DNA of 33,402 nt from Alphaproteobacteria bacterium (GTDB lineage: Bacteria; Pseudomonadota; Alphaproteobacteria; Micavibrionales; Micavibrionaceae), in the NCBI GenBank assembly GCA_027482195.1, contig JAIXWE010000005.1:1-33402 (forward strand), written 5' to 3'. Shown here one piece after another: positions 120-33,402 of this stretch. Each line of letters starts with the position of its first letter. The first letter of the stretch is position 1. The translations under genes were made by a program, and so were the position numbers. Below the pieces are notes generated by a model. The model searched no databases. It had not been told where the DNA came from and worked only from the letters and a program-made list of their open reading frames with translations.

Positions 120-458
120 TTAAAACCTTCCTTCCGAACCGGGCATCATCTGCATGAATAACAATAACCGCTTGTTTGCTTCCTCTGCTTTTTGTTGCTC
201 AGTCAATGGTCTGTAAATGTACTCATAAGACAGACCAAGAATCTCATTCAATGTATACGCTTTAGAATTGCCGCCACGAATGTAATTAAAAACACCAGTG
301 GTAAGCAATCCCAATGTATTCAAAATTACTTTGTTGCCTATAAACCCATCATTAATCGCAATCATTACAACATTAAAATCATCCTCGCTCATTGCATCTG
401 GATTTGCACCATGCGCTAACAAATATGCTCTAGTCTGCAAACGCAATGAGCCAATTAG
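120..458 (-). CDS. Tail assembly chaperone, frameshift extension (T part of a G/GT pair)
   Basis: This reading frame lies in the -1 frame of the upstream chaperone gene. It is open from the slippery site (458) to the stop at 120, giving 112 residues (LIGSLRLQTRAYLL...). No ATG opens it; the first possible start is a TTG at 446 with no ribosome binding site. It is therefore most simply made only as a fusion of 265 residues after -1 slippage, like lambda gpGT. In lambda the T part contacts tail tube protein while G coats the tape measure. Its position just before the tape measure (one gene intervenes) fits. The family is inferred from arrangement, because these proteins are poorly conserved in sequence. 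Confidence 0.82.
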   Translation of the reverse strand, partial: LIGSLRLQTRAYLLAHGANPDAMSEDDFNVVMIAINDGFIGNKVILNTLGLLTTGVFNYIRGGNSKAYTLNEILGLSYEYIYRPLTEQQKAEEANKRLLLFMQMMPGSEGRF

Positions 459-916
459 TTTTTTTTCGTTTCCTCATAACTAGGCGAAATTACTTCCGCA
501 ATTTTTTTCATTAATTCTAATTGCACAGGAAACGGAAACTCGCTGTTAATTTCTTCGTAAGTTAATTCATCCATGTTTGCGCCTTCCATTTCAGGCACAA
601 GCAATTTCACCATTTCCAAAACTCTTTGCTCAGTCTGAGCAGTAATTTTTGCCAAGTTTTTTACTGATCGACCATCAACAATTACATCATCATCCAAATA
701 AACAATTGAATCGCTTTGCAATGTTTCTTTTTTTTCCAGCAGCGGTTTAATTAATTCTTCTGTTTTCTTTGTAATATCAACTTCAGAAACGCGCTTATTT
801 ATAATTTCCATTTCTGATGCTAGTGGAACGCGAACCTTAAAGTTTTGACCGCCCAAAACAAATGATCGAGTTCTTAAAATTTGTTGATTAACTTTTAGAA
901 TTTCTGACAGTTTCAT
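455..916 (-). CDS. Tail assembly chaperone (gpG-like)
   Basis: A 153-residue mostly helical, charged protein starting MKLSEILKVNQQ and ending EETKKN. It sits between the tail tube genes and the tape measure gene, where siphoviruses encode the chaperone that binds nascent tape measure protein and recruits tube subunits. The last codons are ACG AAA AAA AAC TAA, which place a slippery heptamer immediately before the stop. The start ATG at 916 has AAGGAT upstream (GAAAGGATAAGAT). Identification rests on synteny plus the frameshift signal rather than on sequence family recognition. Confidence 0.8.
   Translation of the reverse strand: MKLSEILKVNQQILRTRSFVLGGQNFKVRVPLASEMEIINKRVSEVDITKKTEELIKPLLEKKETLQSDSIVYLDDDVIVDGRSVKNLAKITAQTEQRVLEMVKLLVPEMEGANMDELTYEEINSEFPFPVQLELMKKIAEVISPSYEETKKN
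458..464 (-). other. Programmed -1 ribosomal frameshift site, A AAA AAC
   Basis: On the minus strand the zero frame reads ACG AAA AAA AAC TAA. The heptamer A AAA AAC (464-458) has the X XXY YYZ phasing needed for tandem -1 slippage, and the zero-frame stop follows at once (457-455). An SD-like GAGGA (475-471) lies about 7 bases upstream and could stimulate slippage, as in dnaX. After slippage reading continues CTA ATT GGC TCA into the 112-residue extension. I did not find an obvious strong downstream stem-loop. Confidence 0.85.
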
Positions 917-1186: not shown

Positions 1187-1705
1187 TTAGTTGTTAGACC
1201 AGCCGTACTGACCACCGCGAGGATGAACAGTAAATACGCATTTGGCTTCTGCGCCGGGTTGTGGATCAATTTGAAATTGAGATACTCGACCATTAAATGC
1301 ATAAGCAATTGTGTTTGATCCATCTACCGCAGCCACCACAAATGTGCGATCTACAATACCGCTGTATGCGTCTGAACGAATCTGAAGTAGCGCAGCGTCA
1401 GATGGATTCCATGCGGCAGTAATTGATAGCGAAGTCGGAGCAGATTGCACAGGAATCTTGTCCGATTGACGCGCACCGGCAACCGAAAAGTTTGCCACTG
1501 CATCATCCTGCCCAAAAGCAGGAATTGCCTCGACAGGAACTGCAACACCGTTTGCGCCAGTGCCGTTTGCAGTAGTGCCGACAATTGCCGCCACTTGTGC
1601 AGTCCATACCGAAAGGTTAGCCGTTGTCAGTGGTGTTGGTGTTGCAGCCGACTGCATCCATAGTGATGCGCTAAAGCCGGGCAATACTTTGCTTGGAATA
1701 GCCAT
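1187..1705 (-). CDS. Major tail tube protein, copy 2 (paralogue)
   Basis: A 172-residue protein (MAIPSKVLPGFSASLW...) closely similar over its whole length to the product of 1720-2214. A block of 45 residues starting PVEAIPAFGQ and ending ITAAWNP is identical in both, as is the C-terminal HPRGGQYGWSNN. It should form the tail tube (lambda gpV-like/TTP fold) that stacks as rings around the tape measure protein. It differs from copy 1 mainly near residues 30-60, where it has extra Ala/Gly/Thr-rich residues, probably a surface loop. A strong terminator follows immediately, consistent with high expression. Tube role is inferred from position between tail terminator and chaperone. Confidence 0.8.
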   Translation of the reverse strand: MAIPSKVLPGFSASLWMQSAATPTPLTTANLSVWTAQVAAIVGTTANGTGANGVAVPVEAIPAFGQDDAVANFSVAGARQSDKIPVQSAPTSLSITAAWNPSDAALLQIRSDAYSGIVDRTFVVAAVDGSNTIAYAFNGRVSQFQIDPQPGAEAKCVFTVHPRGGQYGWSNN

Positions 1706-1719
1706 GATTTTTTTCCCTA

Positions 1720-2214
1720 TTAAACGTTATTTGACCAGCCGTACTGACCGCCGCGAGGATGAATCGTAAACATACATTTTGCTTCAGCACCGGGCGCAGG
1801 ATCAATATTAAATTGACTGACGCGACCGTTAAATGCGTAATAAACAATGTTTGAACCATCAACAGCAGCAATCACAAATGTGCGATCAATGACACCGCTT
1901 TCGGAATCTGAGCGCATCAGCAGCAGGTTAGTATCTGCCGGGTTCCATGCAGCGGTAATCGACAAAGATGTGGGCGCAGATTGCACCGGAATTTTGTCCG
2001 ACTGCCTTGCGCCAGCCACAGAAAAGTTTGCTACCGCATCATCTTGACCAAATGCCGGGATTGCTTCCACAGGCAACAGGTTGCCCGATACAGCAATCGG
2101 CGCAACGCTTGCCACAAGCGACAATTGCGCGACAGTCAATGGTGTTGGGGTTGCCGTTGGTTGGCAATATAGCGAAGCCGAAAAGCCCGGCAATACTTTA
2201 TTTGGAAGTGCCAT
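1720..2214 (-). CDS. Major tail tube protein, copy 1
   Basis: A 164-residue protein (MALPNKVLPGFSASLY...) located directly after the tail terminator gene, the usual place for the tube protein in siphoviruses. The ATG at 2214 is preceded by GAGGAATTAAAA, a good ribosome binding site. Its tandem paralogue follows 14 bp downstream. The two share invariant segments in the centre and C-terminus but use different synonymous codons, which shows an old duplication kept under protein-level selection. Either protein, or both, may build the tube. Confidence 0.82.
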   Translation of the reverse strand: MALPNKVLPGFSASLYCQPTATPTPLTVAQLSLVASVAPIAVSGNLLPVEAIPAFGQDDAVANFSVAGARQSDKIPVQSAPTSLSITAAWNPADTNLLLMRSDSESGVIDRTFVIAAVDGSNIVYYAFNGRVSQFNIDPAPGAEAKCMFTIHPRGGQYGWSNNV

Positions 2215-3675: not shown

Positions 3676-4716
3676 TTAAGTCGCAATCAAACGAACACCG
3701 GCAAATGGATCGCGCACAGTCGATACCATGCGCTTTTCAGCAAACATTGTTACAAAGCCGGGCGCAGTCTGTTCCATCGCCTGAACAGTCATTTCCTCAA
3801 CATCGGCAATCGTCAGGAATTTAGCCCAATCAGCAAGGTAAATAGAAATGCTGCCGGTTGCAGTCCATGCATCCAAATACGGATTTGGGATCACAGGCCA
3901 ACCAAATACATTGACCACCGCACCGCCATTGTTCGTGCCGGTTTCCATAAAGTACGGAACATTGCCAGCCGATACCGCTTTGGTCAAAACATCGATTGCC
4001 GATGGATGCATCATCCATGCGGTTGTTGGCGAGTTCCAATATTGACCGGGCAGCGCAAGACGCATTTCCGACAATGTAGATTTGCTCAGACCGGCAACCG
4101 TTGCGCCGACTGTGGCAATAGTATGCCGACCATTGGTAATCGCTGTGCCGCTTGATCCAAACGCCGATACAGCACCAGCAGCGCCGGGATAACTATTCAG
4201 ACCGCGCAGACCATAAATGCCGCCTGTGCTGGTTGTAGTGCTTCCTGCCTGATCGTTATTTAAGCCCATTGACGCGCCTTCAAGTTGCGCGAATTCCATC
4301 ATCAAATCTTCAATGAGTTCGTTATTCAGGCCATTAACGTCTGACAATACCGCTGTGCGGATTGGCATCTGTGCGGTAATCACTCGCGTTGGCAATTGCC
4401 AAATCGATGTGTTGATATTAGGTGATCCGCTGTTGGGCGTGAATACATAGCCCCACGGGTTTGTGCTGTTTGCCGCATTACCTGTCTTTGCGACAAATTG
4501 AACGTCCGACATATTTGCGGTTTTGATTTGACGCGCACCCAAACGATATGGGTTGGCATATCGAAATGCTGCAAATACATCATCAAAGAAAGTTTGACCA
4601 CCAACACCAGAACCGCTGCCGGTAAGAGCAGAAGCCTCGCGCAAATCAATGGTGATTCTATCGCCAGTTTCTAGCGTCTGTTTGATACCGGTTAGGATTT
4701 TTTCGTTGGCTTTCAT
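3676..4716 (-). CDS. Second major capsid protein paralogue, lacking the delta (scaffold) domain
   Basis: A 346-residue HK97-fold capsid protein starting MKANEKILTGIKQ. It aligns with the upstream capsid protein from EASALTG onward: shared blocks include AKTGNA, IWQL, PIRTA, NNDQA, YGLRGL/NGLRGL and C-terminal EKR...PFAGVR. The upstream paralogue has about 105 residues before EASALTG; this one has only about 30, so the coiled-coil delta domain is essentially missing. I chose the ATG at 4716 because GGAA lies just upstream; alternatives are 4725 and 4758. It may build part of the shell (for example vertices) or be a variant shell protein. An intrinsic terminator separates it from copy 1. Confidence 0.88.
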   Translation of the reverse strand: MKANEKILTGIKQTLETGDRITIDLREASALTGSGSGVGGQTFFDDVFAAFRYANPYRLGARQIKTANMSDVQFVAKTGNAANSTNPWGYVFTPNSGSPNINTSIWQLPTRVITAQMPIRTAVLSDVNGLNNELIEDLMMEFAQLEGASMGLNNDQAGSTTTSTGGIYGLRGLNSYPGAAGAVSAFGSSGTAITNGRHTIATVGATVAGLSKSTLSEMRLALPGQYWNSPTTAWMMHPSAIDVLTKAVSAGNVPYFMETGTNNGGAVVNVFGWPVIPNPYLDAWTATGSISIYLADWAKFLTIADVEEMTVQAMEQTAPGFVTMFAEKRMVSTVRDPFAGVRLIAT

Positions 4717-4738
4717 TTTTTCCATTCCCAAATTTAGC

Positions 4739-4779: not shown

Positions 4780-6123
4780 TTAGGTTGACGTGCCAGTAGA
4801 ACGATAACGAACACCAGCAAACGGGTTGACAACCGAAGTTGCCAAACGCTTTTCACCAAAGAACGTGATGAAGCCGGGGAGGGTTTGATCGTAACGGCGC
4901 ATGACCATCGACAGACGATCAACAGTGGTATGGAAACGCGACCAATCTGCAAAGTACATTGGATACAGGCTATTAGTACCAGCCGATCCAGTGGTCAACT
5001 GCGAAGGCGTATCGCAATACTTGTTGACGATAACGTCAAAGCCCATCAGCGTACCGACAATGCCATCATCACGCGACAAACCGTCAATGTAGATCGGGCG
5101 CTTCTGATCATCAACCAGACCGCGAATCTGCTGAAGCAGTACAGGGTTAATCATAAACTTAGCATCGGGAGTCCAGTATTCCTGTGGCAGCGAATAGACA
5201 AAATTCACAACGTCTTTGTATGTGATATTACCCGCACCGACCGTATTGGCGTTGGTGGTGAGCTGGTCATAAGTAGCAAGCGAATGCAGACCAGTAGTGC
5301 TACCAGTACCGCTATTGCCAAAAGCGGCAGTAGTAACAGAACCGCCAGCGTAAGTTGCAGCAGAACCAGCGTACTGATCCAGACCGCGCAGACCGTTTGT
5401 GCCACCGTATGGGTTGGAAACAGATTGAGCAGCTTGGTCATTGTTCTGCACCATTGAGAGTGCTTCAGACTGAGAGAATTCCAGCAGCATATCCGAAACA
5501 ACATTTGCTTCCAGACCGTCAATGTCATCCAGCGCAGCGGTACGGATTGGGAACTGGACGTTAATATCTTGCAGAACCAATTGCCAAATGGTTGTATCTT
5601 CAGTTGTGGTTGCACCGTTGTTCTGGATGGTGTAACCCCATGCAGCACCAGCGTTGCCGGTTTTTGCACGGAACTGATACGAAGAACCATCGGTTGCAAC
5701 TTGACGCGAAATTTGACGCATTGGGTTTGCAAGACGCAGCGGAGCAAACACTGGATCATAGGCAGTGCGACCACCCTGATTGTTACCGCCGCCTGTCAAT
5801 GCCGATGCTTCCTTCATGTATGCATCATATTCAGCAGCATCTTCAAACAGTTTCAGTTCCTTTTCCATGCGGGAATTGGATTTGTAGAACTGTGCAAGCG
5901 ATTCACGAACACGGCGATTAACGTCAACCTGAATGCCTTTGTTTGCGCGAACAATCTCAGGTGCGCGAATCTGTGCAACCTTTGCTTCCAGTGCTGCGAC
6001 CTTTTCGGCAAAAGAAACTTCAGCAGCAGCAACTGCCTCAGACACTTTTTCAGAAACGATTGCTTCGGTTTTTTCTTGCAGGTTCGATTCAATGGAATCG
6101 AGTTTTTCAATAATTTTGTCCAT
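4780..6123 (-). CDS. Major capsid protein, HK97 fold, with N-terminal scaffold domain
   Basis: A 447-residue protein. Residues 1 to about 60 (MDKIIEKLDSIESNLQ..., then repeated Ala/Glu/Lys heptads) predict a coiled coil, the delta domain that scaffolds assembly in HK97-type phages. The shell domain starts near EASALTGGG (about residue 106), the probable protease cleavage area, and ends GFITFFGEKR...NPFAGVRYRS, a typical HK97 capsid C-terminus. It follows the prohead protease and is followed by a strong terminator and a paralogous capsid gene. Confidence 0.95.
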   Translation of the reverse strand: MDKIIEKLDSIESNLQEKTEAIVSEKVSEAVAAAEVSFAEKVAALEAKVAQIRAPEIVRANKGIQVDVNRRVRESLAQFYKSNSRMEKELKLFEDAAEYDAYMKEASALTGGGNNQGGRTAYDPVFAPLRLANPMRQISRQVATDGSSYQFRAKTGNAGAAWGYTIQNNGATTTEDTTIWQLVLQDINVQFPIRTAALDDIDGLEANVVSDMLLEFSQSEALSMVQNNDQAAQSVSNPYGGTNGLRGLDQYAGSAATYAGGSVTTAAFGNSGTGSTTGLHSLATYDQLTTNANTVGAGNITYKDVVNFVYSLPQEYWTPDAKFMINPVLLQQIRGLVDDQKRPIYIDGLSRDDGIVGTLMGFDVIVNKYCDTPSQLTTGSAGTNSLYPMYFADWSRFHTTVDRLSMVMRRYDQTLPGFITFFGEKRLATSVVNPFAGVRYRSTGTST

Positions 6124-29893: not shown

Positions 29894-32860
29894 TTATCTC
29901 GATATTGGAACACTACGATTTGCGCTTTGATACGCAGCCCAAATTGTATTTTTATTTGATGCAAGAAACTGCGTTGCCGATTGCGTATCAATTGCACTCA
30001 TGCTGGCAATGTATGTGCCGTTATTTGTAAAGCCGCCTTTGTTCATATTAGCCGCAGCTTGTTGCCATGATCCGTTTGGAATGACAGTGCCGGGAGTATT
30101 TGGCATAAATAATTCAGGACCATTTTCTCCAACTAATGTTAATCCGTTAATCGCGCCACCAGATGCAGCCTCTCCATATCCAACACTAATGCCAGCGTCA
30201 TAATTCATGGTTTTTATTCCAGCAGGAGTAAAAAACCCAACAAGCGATCTAAACAACATAGATGCTTGCGCTTGCATTTCCATGCGAATCAAATCTTTAA
30301 TAATTGATAAAGCAAATTCTTCAAATTTAAATTCGCCTGTTTCCACAAAATTGCTAATTGCTGCATCCATATTGCTCATAACAGTTGAAAATGCAGCCTC
30401 TCCACGCTTAAAAGCATTTTCAGCGGTTTCTTGAAATTGACGCGCAGAATATTCCCATCCATCAACAAAACTTCTTTGCCGTTCTATTTCCTTTTCTAAA
30501 TTTTGTTGACGCGCATTATTTATTTGATCTATCGCATCAAGTTCAATATCTCTTATTTCTTCAATGCTTTTAATTCTTTGTTCGTATTCTTCACGCGCTT
30601 TTTGTCCACCACCTTGACGCTTCATTTCATATTCAGCTTCTTTCATTTGATCGTTATATTTTTTTTCTGCTTCAATCAAACGGTGAATATTCTCCAATGC
30701 AAGATTAGACAAGTTATATTGATTAGTAGACATCAAATAACGATTGCCTTCTAGTTGCAATCGTTGTTTTTCAATATTTAATGTTGATTGAATGTTGGCA
30801 ATGTCGCGCCCTTTTTGCTGCGCCAAATCCAATTTAAACATTTTGTCTTCTAAATCAAACTGTTCTTTTGTTGCTTCTTTTCTTACTTCTTGAAGTCTAA
30901 CAATTGAATCAATTACAATTAATTCATTGTCTAATATTTTATTTCTATTTGCGTCAAGCAACATAAGATCGTGGAGAGTTTTTCCAGTTAACTCATATGC
31001 TTCATTTAATTCTTTTATTTTTTGTTTTGTTTCATCTTTTATTTTTTTAATTTCTTGTTCATATTCAATATCTAATTTTTTTTGTGCATAGGCAGCAGAG
31101 CCAAGATTAAATCTGTCTCTTTCTAAATTAATTAATTCAATTGTATTATCTGTTTCTTGTCTTAAAGTTACCATTCGTAAAGCAGTTTCATCTTTAACTG
31201 CTTTAATAGTTATGTCATGATTTCTTTTTTGTTCTTGTGCCAGTATTGTTGATCTTGCTTCTTGTATTGCAATGATTCTATTTTTTTCTTGCTGATATTG
31301 TTGATCTGCCAATTGCATATTTTTTTGACGCACTGCTGCATCTTCTGCTGATTTTGCAGATAAATCATATGCTCTCTCAATATCAATTAAAGTATTTGAA
31401 TATTGAGCACCTGCTTTTGCTAATTGATTTGCTTGTTCAACTTCTAATTTACGCAATTCATATGTGCCTTCACCAATTTCAAATTTTTCTTTTTCTAAAG
31501 AAAGCAAATCATATGTTGCTTTATATTCTGCATCATTAGTGTTAGCTTGTTTTTTATATTCAGTATCAATATTTTGCATCGTAATTTGATGCTGATGCGC
31601 TAATGCTTTTTGACGCAGACCATTTTCTATACCAAATTGTTTAACCCTCGCATCAATTGCAGCCTTTTCTTTTGCATTAATTAAATCAACTTGCGCTTTT
31701 TCTTTGTTACGCTCTTTTGCCGCATCATTACGAATTTGTGCAAGATCACTTGCCAAATTTAATATCATTTTTTCTTGCGCTATTGCAGCCTCACCTAGCG
31801 GAATTCCTTTGGCATCAATAGCAAACATTTTGTCGGCAATGTCTGCTTTTTCTTTTATTAGTTTAATTTCAAGTTCTAATGCTCTACGTGTTTCTTGTTT
31901 GCGCTTTTCTTCCTCTGCCGCAGCTTTTGCATCAGACTGCCCTTTTTTTGAAGGATTTTTATAATCGCCAGCAACAGCTGCTTTTGCAATTTCTATTGCT
32001 GCCCTGTTTTGTCTTTGTGGTGATGCGCCATAACCATGAGTTATTGCTGTGCCGGACATACCGCCCAATTCACCTGCGCCCCAATCAATTTCTGCGCTAC
32101 CACCTTCCTTTAAATTTTGCATTGTGTCCGCAATGTTTGCTATTGAATTAACAATTGCAGCCAATGGAGAAACCAATTTTTGAGCAAAGAAAAGAATATT
32201 TTTAAATGCCGCTTCTATGTTTTCCCATGCTTTTGCATTTTCTTGTATTGCAGAAAGCAAAGCCGGATCGCCCATTTCTTTGTATTTGTTTACAAAAGTT
32301 GAAGCGTCTACACCTTTCATCGCCTTACCAAGAATTTGATTTTGTAATGCTGCTCTTTTGCCAGCATCTTCTACTTGCGCCAATTCTTGTACTACTCTTT
32401 TGAACAAATCTTCCAGCTTTAGATTTTCAACATCTTTCCCGCTAATTTTTAATTCAGTAAATGCTTTGCGTAATTCGTCGCTACCCTCAATTGCATCTTG
32501 TTGAACACTTGCCAATTTGTTTAATGATGTGCCTATGTTATCAGCCTCGCCGCCAGCACCTTGCATCGCCGCTTGCATTGCAATTAATGATGATGTTGTT
32601 ACATCATAAGCAGCGGCAGTATCTTCAATTTGATCGGCATATTGGAATGCTTTTCCAACAACCAATGCAGCAGCAGCAACACCAGCAAGACCTGTTGCCG
32701 CTGTTGTCATAAACTCATCTTGCGCTTTTTGTGCATTACGCAACGCGCGCTTTTGATTCATTTCAAATTCGCGCGTTTTCTTTGTGGCATCATCAATGCC
32801 AGAAATAAATTCTTTGTTATCTAAACCAAGAATGACACCAAGCCGCGCAATTAATGACAT
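29894..32860 (-). CDS. Tape measure protein
   Basis: A 988-residue protein. N-terminal MSLIARLGVILGLDNKEFISGIDDATKKTREFE fits TMP families. Hydrophobic segments near residues 52-70 (TAATGLAGVAAAALVVG) and 235-255 (LFFAQKLVSPLAAIV). The middle (about 300-830) is a long Lys/Glu/Gln-rich coil. The C-terminus has GGAINGLTLVGENGPELFMPN and NGTYIASMSA, typical of TMP ends. At about 1.5 A per residue the tail would be near 150 nm (inference). Coding is very AT-rich in the middle. AAAGGG site before ATG. Confidence 0.95.
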   Translation of the reverse strand: MSLIARLGVILGLDNKEFISGIDDATKKTREFEMNQKRALRNAQKAQDEFMTTAATGLAGVAAAALVVGKAFQYADQIEDTAAAYDVTTSSLIAMQAAMQGAGGEADNIGTSLNKLASVQQDAIEGSDELRKAFTELKISGKDVENLKLEDLFKRVVQELAQVEDAGKRAALQNQILGKAMKGVDASTFVNKYKEMGDPALLSAIQENAKAWENIEAAFKNILFFAQKLVSPLAAIVNSIANIADTMQNLKEGGSAEIDWGAGELGGMSGTAITHGYGASPQRQNRAAIEIAKAAVAGDYKNPSKKGQSDAKAAAEEEKRKQETRRALELEIKLIKEKADIADKMFAIDAKGIPLGEAAIAQEKMILNLASDLAQIRNDAAKERNKEKAQVDLINAKEKAAIDARVKQFGIENGLRQKALAHQHQITMQNIDTEYKKQANTNDAEYKATYDLLSLEKEKFEIGEGTYELRKLEVEQANQLAKAGAQYSNTLIDIERAYDLSAKSAEDAAVRQKNMQLADQQYQQEKNRIIAIQEARSTILAQEQKRNHDITIKAVKDETALRMVTLRQETDNTIELINLERDRFNLGSAAYAQKKLDIEYEQEIKKIKDETKQKIKELNEAYELTGKTLHDLMLLDANRNKILDNELIVIDSIVRLQEVRKEATKEQFDLEDKMFKLDLAQQKGRDIANIQSTLNIEKQRLQLEGNRYLMSTNQYNLSNLALENIHRLIEAEKKYNDQMKEAEYEMKRQGGGQKAREEYEQRIKSIEEIRDIELDAIDQINNARQQNLEKEIERQRSFVDGWEYSARQFQETAENAFKRGEAAFSTVMSNMDAAISNFVETGEFKFEEFALSIIKDLIRMEMQAQASMLFRSLVGFFTPAGIKTMNYDAGISVGYGEAASGGAINGLTLVGENGPELFMPNTPGTVIPNGSWQQAAANMNKGGFTNNGTYIASMSAIDTQSATQFLASNKNTIWAAYQSANRSVPISR

Positions 32861-32870
32861 GATTTACCCT

Positions 32871-33402
32871 TTACTTTGCTTTGCTTTGTTTTGCTTTATA
32901 TTTTGTAATTTGATTTTGTATTTCAATTTTTAATTTTTCTGCAACCGCATCTTGATTTTTTTCAAGTGCTGGCCTTAAATATGGCCTTGGAGCCATTCTT
33001 GCCGAACCAAATTCACGTTGCAATGCTAATTGACCACGCTTTGACAAGCCTTTAGGCATAGCCATTGTTTTATTATGATTCTTTGTGCCGTATTCAACAA
33101 ACATTGCGCGACCATCAGAAATATCTTTTCCTTCCAATATTGCGCTTACTTGAGCAATAACCAAATCGGTTGGTTTAACATACATTGACCTTTGATCTTT
33201 TGGTTTAGCCAATCTTGCATCAACGCGCAAAGTTCTTTGCAATTGACCTGTATCATAACCATGCCCCGGTTTTAAATTAGCTTTAGCCGCATTTAATACA
33301 ATAGTCATTGCTGTTTTTGCAGCAGGAATTAATACGTTTTTATCCGCGCTTTCAACGCCATAATCTTTGCTTATTTGTTCAAGCAAATACGCCAATTCCT
33401 GA
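32871..33402 (-). CDS. HK97 gp10-like tail/neck completion protein (partial here; N-terminus at 1-118)
   Basis: Joined with 1-118 across the circle the protein has 190 residues. Pattern: GHGYDTGQLQRTLRVDARL, AMFVEYGTKNHNKTMAMPKGL and GSARMAPRPYLRPALEK, the R-x-x-P-x-x-RPAxE core of the HK97 gp10 family. The C-terminus is basic and repetitive (KYKAKQSKAK). HK97 gp10 proteins are normally encoded before the tail terminator; here the gene lies just before the tape measure. Confidence 0.85.
   Translation of the reverse strand, partial: QELAYLLEQISKDYGVESADKNVLIPAAKTAMTIVLNAAKANLKPGHGYDTGQLQRTLRVDARLAKPKDQRSMYVKPTDLVIAQVSAILEGKDISDGRAMFVEYGTKNHNKTMAMPKGLSKRGQLALQREFGSARMAPRPYLRPALEKNQDAVAEKLKIEIQNQITKYKAKQSKAK
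33326..33402. repeat. Terminal direct repeat, right copy
   Basis: Exact copy of bases 1-77. It should be counted once in the circular genome. Confidence 0.93.

Follow-up and report, generated by a model that had tools for sequence, protein, structure and literature searches.

Parallel change in the predicted ring-to-ring loop of two tandem tail tube paralogues points to a probable copolymer tail tube

Why should two neighbouring phage genes encode proteins that agree completely over 45 residues and yet spell most of these residues with different codons? A tail tube is commonly regarded as a homopolymer that has a single interface. The question is raised by two tandem open reading frames on the minus strand of the window, by which we mean the whole stretch of 33,402 nucleotides that was analyzed. 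The upstream gene encodes tail tube protein A (1720..2214, 164 aa), the second one tail tube protein B (1187..1705, 172 aa); 14 bases lie between them, and a Shine-Dalgarno-like sequence precedes each. All tube, capsid and tape measure coordinates given here refer to the minus strand. The window is one contig of a 1.8 Mb genome in 125 contigs and represents an essentially complete, terminally redundant siphophage genome. Its two ends have 77 identical bases in common (1-77 and 33326-33402), which indicates a complete phage genome of about 33.3 kb that is circular or terminally redundant. The junction of the overlapping contig ends is crossed by a small gene.

Gene order places A and B where tail tube genes are found. 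On the minus strand, terminase, portal and protease (PF04586) are followed by major capsid protein 1 (MCP1; 4780..6123, 447 aa, PF05065), major capsid protein 2 (MCP2; 3676..4719, 347 aa, PF05065), head-tail adaptor, head completion protein and terminator. Tube A and tube B come next, and then a 75-aa protein, two chaperone-like ORFs and the tape measure protein (29894..32860, 988 aa, PF09718), so that the tube genes have the terminator upstream, the chaperone-like genes downstream and the tape measure beyond. A and B have no Pfam match, and no sequence relative with a solved structure was found. The family can nevertheless be assigned through phrog_158 (“major tail protein”): with a cutoff of E 0.01, it is hit by 44 of the 48 family members that were aligned. 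Within the window, the E values are 1.2e-4 for B, but only 0.066 for A.

Structure prediction points the same way. The AlphaFold model of B (mean pLDDT 74.9, residues 65-89 below 50) contains b1 at 12-18, a helix at 34-42, b2 at 53-56, b3 at 93-98, a further helix at 104-115, b4 at 119-127, b5 at 132-146 and b6 at 155-170; in the AF2 model of A (mean pLDDT 77.9), b1, b3, the helix and b4-b6 are ordered as in B. When the B model was compared with the PDB, phage tail tubes occupied the top rows (VIA Z up to 12.6), and lambda gpV was the closest fold (VIA Z 11.6-12.0, rmsd ~3.2 over ~123 residues; Foldseek against 8k36, E 2.7e-5). Both models, and for B also the PDB comparison, show the b-sandwich, flanking helix and long b2-b3 loop of a gpV-like fold, which bears out the tail tube identity proposed in the initial annotation. 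Like gpV (PDB 7T2E, 8K36, 8IYK), B is predicted to carry O-loop, E-loop and flanking helix in the same order, and lambda has the same siphophage gene order. Points of difference are that gpV is the product of one gene, forms a homomeric tube and has a C-terminal Ig domain, and that no sequence similarity is detectable. The “tail tubular proteins A and B” of T7-like podophages (PMC10504331) are a different thing.

Over the whole length, A and B share 128 of 163 aligned residues. One unbroken identical run comprises 45 residues, beginning PVEAIPAF and ending TAAWNP (A 48-92, 1939..2073; B 57-101, 1403..1537). As the initial annotation had noticed, this core is written in different codons: 30 of its nucleotides differ, 28 of these in the third position of a codon, and 28 of the 45 codons are affected. 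The comparison of synonymous and non-synonymous divergence that it had called for gives a dN of 0.01 and a saturated dS (NG86). Differences between the proteins are densest at B 14-56, where B also has an insertion of 8-9 residues. This overlaps the variable region that the initial annotation placed near residues 30-60, but variation is not confined to one site, since a second group lies at B 105-134. Most of the 45-residue block is invariant across the whole tube family, and its remainder agrees far more within a genome than between genomes; the identity of A and B is therefore not due to chance.

Relatives were collected in scans of viral contigs, each contributing the best 80 of several hundred candidates, and tubes were counted at distinct loci whose flanking genes prove the count complete. 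Tandem A and B genes in the same order are present in at least 92 distinct relatives, and at least 66 have a single tube that is always of the A type, a ratio that follows from the queries used and is not a frequency in nature. The pair that was to be sought in relatives is thus conserved. Among the matches listed, the B insertion is absent from all 66 single tubes and present in all 92 second genes; B is always the second gene of the pair and never occurs alone, even though two scans started from B. As the single-tube relatives show, A-type protein alone suffices for a tube, and B is accessory. In a tree of 105 tubes, B forms one clade (SH-aLRT 100). The duplication is therefore old, in agreement with the earlier view that it is not recent. 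When mapped onto a tree of the genes for MCP2, adaptor, head completion protein and terminator, the dual state turns up in scattered places, and well-supported branches force at least 7-8 changes, implying that B was lost, or moved, repeatedly. In one contig (L127, 3946-4470), the B gene is broken into two frames, either by a frameshift or by a sequencing error.

Among cultured phages, a relative was found only in P19250A of Methylophilaceae (KX815270). It resembles the phage of the window in gene order, in having MCP1 and MCP2, and in its tube protein (63% identical), but has a single A-type tube gene and a tape measure of 594 aa as annotated. With regard to the host, relatives were found in a Betaproteobacteria MAG and in a Rhodocyclaceae MAG. 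Among 143 genomes searched, only the window's own genome matched, and a search of plasmids found no relatives. The phage of the window is a freshwater phage, and the available matches suggest that the dual-tube phages are a widespread freshwater group.

How can the core stay identical in proteins that diverged long ago? One answer would be that A and B are redundant and match only because strong purifying selection acts on an invariant loop. Of the 32 columns of the E-loop, 20 are indeed nearly invariant, none is type-specific, and 8 change in lockstep. It is these variable columns that speak against mere conservation, because they agree within genomes and not across them. For 40 dereplicated dual genomes, amino acid identity in the core is 0.956 between A and its own B, but 0.863 between A and the B of other genomes. 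When the columns under test were left out of tree building, the core was found to have undergone 88 changes in A and 103 in B, and 34 fell on the same branch, against 7.4 expected if the genes changed independently (maximum of 500 simulations, 16). In 33 of these 34 cases, the substitution was identical. Columns outside the tested set behaved as expected by chance (26 same-branch changes versus 26.1). Because phage genes recombine, such counts depend on the tree, but module and background trees agree, the latter giving 46 same-branch core changes versus 14.4 expected. The core boundaries were set beforehand by the finding of the identical block. For ten C-terminal columns, there were 28 same-branch changes versus 10.2 expected, a figure that is biased since these columns were picked for covarying. 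The excess of same-branch changes in the core contradicts redundancy with an invariant loop, and consistent type-specific differences elsewhere in A and B argue against it as well; we regard it as very unlikely.

Mismatch counts tell the same story. For the E-loop, the number of positions at which A is mismatched is 0.89 with its own B, 1.79 with the B of the five nearest genomes and 1.40 with their A. In the O-loop, by contrast, A differs at 15.4 positions from its own B and likewise at 15.4 from the B of the five nearest genomes, but at only 3.4 from their A. In the predicted ring-to-ring loop, A is thus nearer to its own B than to the A of its nearest relatives.

Lockstep is not a general feature of paralogues in these genomes. 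The two capsid proteins (HK97-type paralogues, 38% identical in the window) are paired in single- and dual-tube phages alike and served as a control: identity between MCP1 and MCP2 is 0.386 within versus 0.384 across genomes, with an excess in 3 of 348 columns. The lockstep of the tube proteins is therefore not a by-product of tree shape or genome sampling. The initial annotation had set the capsid duplication beside that of the tube; the capsid pair exists, but it represents a different phenomenon, and the missing lockstep suggests that MCP1 and MCP2 probably have distinct roles and are not interchangeable.

Gene conversion between the tandem copies could also homogenize the core. The copies are adjacent, and a tree of the core alone mixes A and B of one genome, as conversion would predict. 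The codons, however, do not follow the amino acids. At core residues shared by A and B, codon identity is 0.407 within and 0.400 across genomes (p = 0.27), and within genomes it is lower in the core than in the flanks (0.485). The excess over codon shuffles has a z of 2.9 in the core, compared with 12 in the flanks, and the longest identical tract averages only about 17 nt. Moreover, individual mutations could be traced where two genomes are so close that 75-85% of codons are still the same. At residue 65, A alternates between GGC and AGC, whereas B alternates between GGT and AGT; at residue 77, the codons of one genome (L021) are ACA for A and ACG for B; at residue 57, both genes switch between CAA and ATG, while the third bases nearby differ between the paralogues. 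Since the third bases stay paralogue-specific through the parallel changes, the matching changes must have arisen separately in A and B. In the cases traced, background-level codon identity and independent mutations contradict gene conversion, which we consider the least probable explanation of the core. The same observations bear on two earlier expectations: matching codons, the trace that recent recombination would leave, are not seen, and the similarity of the core is indeed kept by selection. Selection for codon divergence as a guard against recombination between A and B is not supported, since identical tracts, at 17.4 nt, slightly exceed the 15.7 nt obtained with shuffled codons. In the flanks, outside the lockstep block, codon identity between A and B is 0.485 within versus 0.437 across genomes.

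The position of the lockstep columns suggests what selection acts on. The identical block coincides with the predicted ring-to-ring loop of the gpV-like fold, the long b2-b3 loop (E-loop or hinge loop; B 61-92, 1430..1525; A 52-83, 1966..2061). In the lambda protein, the E-loop lies at the place of the B 61-92 loop, and an inter-ring role of the b2-b3 loop has been described for several homologues (PMC8718954, PMC10721106, PMC11445458). Because pLDDT is below 50 for most of the loop, its contacts are taken from these homologues and are correspondingly tentative. Lockstep positions within the loop are B 61, 66, 70, 72, 74, 78, 86 and 88. More lie at the b4-b5 turn (B 128-131, 1313..1324; lockstep at 128) and in the b5-b6 loop (B 147-154, 1244..1267; lockstep at 148, 149 and 151). 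In JBD30, the adjoining ring receives the loop between two of its own loops (PMC11445458), and by topology the b4-b5 turn and b5-b6 loop are candidates for these docking loops, L1 and L2, respectively. Parallel change of A and B across genomes thus affects both the loop and its predicted docking loops. Of 34 O-loop columns, on the other hand, 24 are type-specific and none is in lockstep, and 4 more type-specific columns fall in the helix. The outer surface of the lambda tube is made up of O-loop and helix (PMC10721106), and it is in these elements, predicted to face outward, that A and B differ; the B-specific insertion (about B residues 42-49, 1559..1582) would lie in the O-loop, on the outer surface of the tube.

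Together, these data suggest a model in which a single tail tube is built from A as well as B as structural subunits, in an unordered or freely ordered mixture, a reading that we hold with moderate confidence. Six-subunit rings would stack by insertion of the long b2-b3 loop of one ring into loops of the next. If each side of a ring junction can be occupied by A as well as by B, a substitution in loop or dock would be tolerated only when both genes acquire it, and selection would then drive identical parallel substitutions without gene conversion. On the predicted outer surface, the O-loop with the insertion of B and the helix, the two proteins would be free to differ, so that B could add a second type of surface to the tube. 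The data show that the duplication is old, that the two proteins change in lockstep, that no trace of conversion accompanies it, and where the columns lie in the predicted fold; co-assembly, residue contacts, stoichiometry and the function of the outer loop of B are what we infer in this model. The heteromeric tube raised as an idea in the initial annotation is favored, strict alternation of A and B less so, since alternation needs only a match of the A loop with the B dock and of the B loop with the A dock, not the same residues in both proteins. With the usual values of 1.5 A per tape measure residue and about 42 A per tube ring, the 988-aa tape measure would correspond to a tube of about 35 rings.

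The main rival invokes shared third partners, which could produce lockstep without contact between A and B. Each tube would consist entirely of A or entirely of B, depending on expression or host, and the loops would match only because the terminator, distal tail protein and tape measure that they have to fit are common to both. In both lambda (PMC10721106) and JBD30 (PMC11445458), loop and dock do contact terminator and distal protein, and single-tube relatives manage with A alone. However, common partners constrain only the ends of the tube, and the loop and dock of each paralogue could elsewhere drift as a self-matched pair. In addition, A and B are probably made together, as they belong to one operon, have good ribosome-binding sites and are separated by 14 bases. 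All-A or all-B tubes therefore seem unlikely to us, if worth keeping in mind.

A zoned tube, mostly of A but with B in a defined block or in a ring at one end, or the reverse, would fit with the usual presence of special end rings (terminator, distal protein) and with the constant second place of B and its absence as a lone gene among the matches listed. Tape measures also tend to be longer in dual-tube than in single-tube phages (median 688 versus 600 aa, raw p 2e-13), but in a phylogenetic regression at lambda 1, that is, after full correction, p is 0.09, with only 3 independent pairs. A terminal B ring would moreover need only one face that matches A, whereas lockstep is found in both the loop and the predicted dock, and we regard zoning as improbable. 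The tape measure lengths of the relatives cluster at about 600, 660-690, 810-820 and 985 aa, with dual-tube phages at the long end.

There are precedents in the form of multiple tail tube genes, frameshift variants and Hcp heterohexamers. In SPP1, gp17.1 and gp17.1* occur in one tube at 3:1, differing on the outside and sharing the polymerizing core (PMC8718954). The two forms with a shared core are comparable to A and B, but gp17.1* arises by translational frameshift of one gene, so that the cores are identical by construction; A and B are separate genes kept matching by parallel mutation. Separately encoded tube paralogues in one siphophage have been annotated in actinophage Damascus (gp17 and gp19, two major tail proteins; PMC11080557), and Microbacterium phage Count (MH153801; L276, 9016-11948) has three, gp22, gp24 and gp25, that are 41-47% identical. 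Both belong to a different family and lack a near-identical loop. Hcp heterohexamers of the Bacteroides T6SS, as cited in PMC13323088, show that tube-fold paralogues can co-assemble in one ring, and the B model matches one of them (PDB 9VNE) with a Z of 8.2. They are a precedent for co-assembly only, as they belong to an effector-carrying secretion system and not to a phage tail; A and B are encoded in a phage genome with portal, protease, capsid and tape measure. A literature search that covered few subscription papers yielded no description of tube paralogues in tandem whose stacking loops match. What would be new, and what we rate at slightly better than even, is a true copolymer of two anciently diverged subunits from separate genes, with an interface kept identical by recurrent parallel mutation and outer surfaces that specialize, in widespread freshwater phages.

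The locus offers a clean and replicated case of paralogues that are locally identical by selection rather than by gene conversion. Dozens of natural genome pairs record which interface substitutions have to be made twice, so that interface contacts, their tolerance and the bending of flexible tails become readable from evolution and testable. Amino acids that match within a genome without a match of codons are a bioinformatic signature by which other copolymers might be found, and the three paralogues of Count offer another family for tests of multi-subunit tubes.

Two minor observations concern other tail genes of the window. In the chaperone ORF at 455-916, a run of eight A on its strand precedes the stop (window 446-470), and the ORF at 120-446 carries on from it in another frame. 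A -1 frameshift is usual for tail assembly chaperones, and the region at 446-470 looks like one. Finally, a GNAT acetyltransferase-like gene (PF00583, 28152-28598) lies inside the tail tip cluster, directly before the gene for the 1105-aa tip protein.
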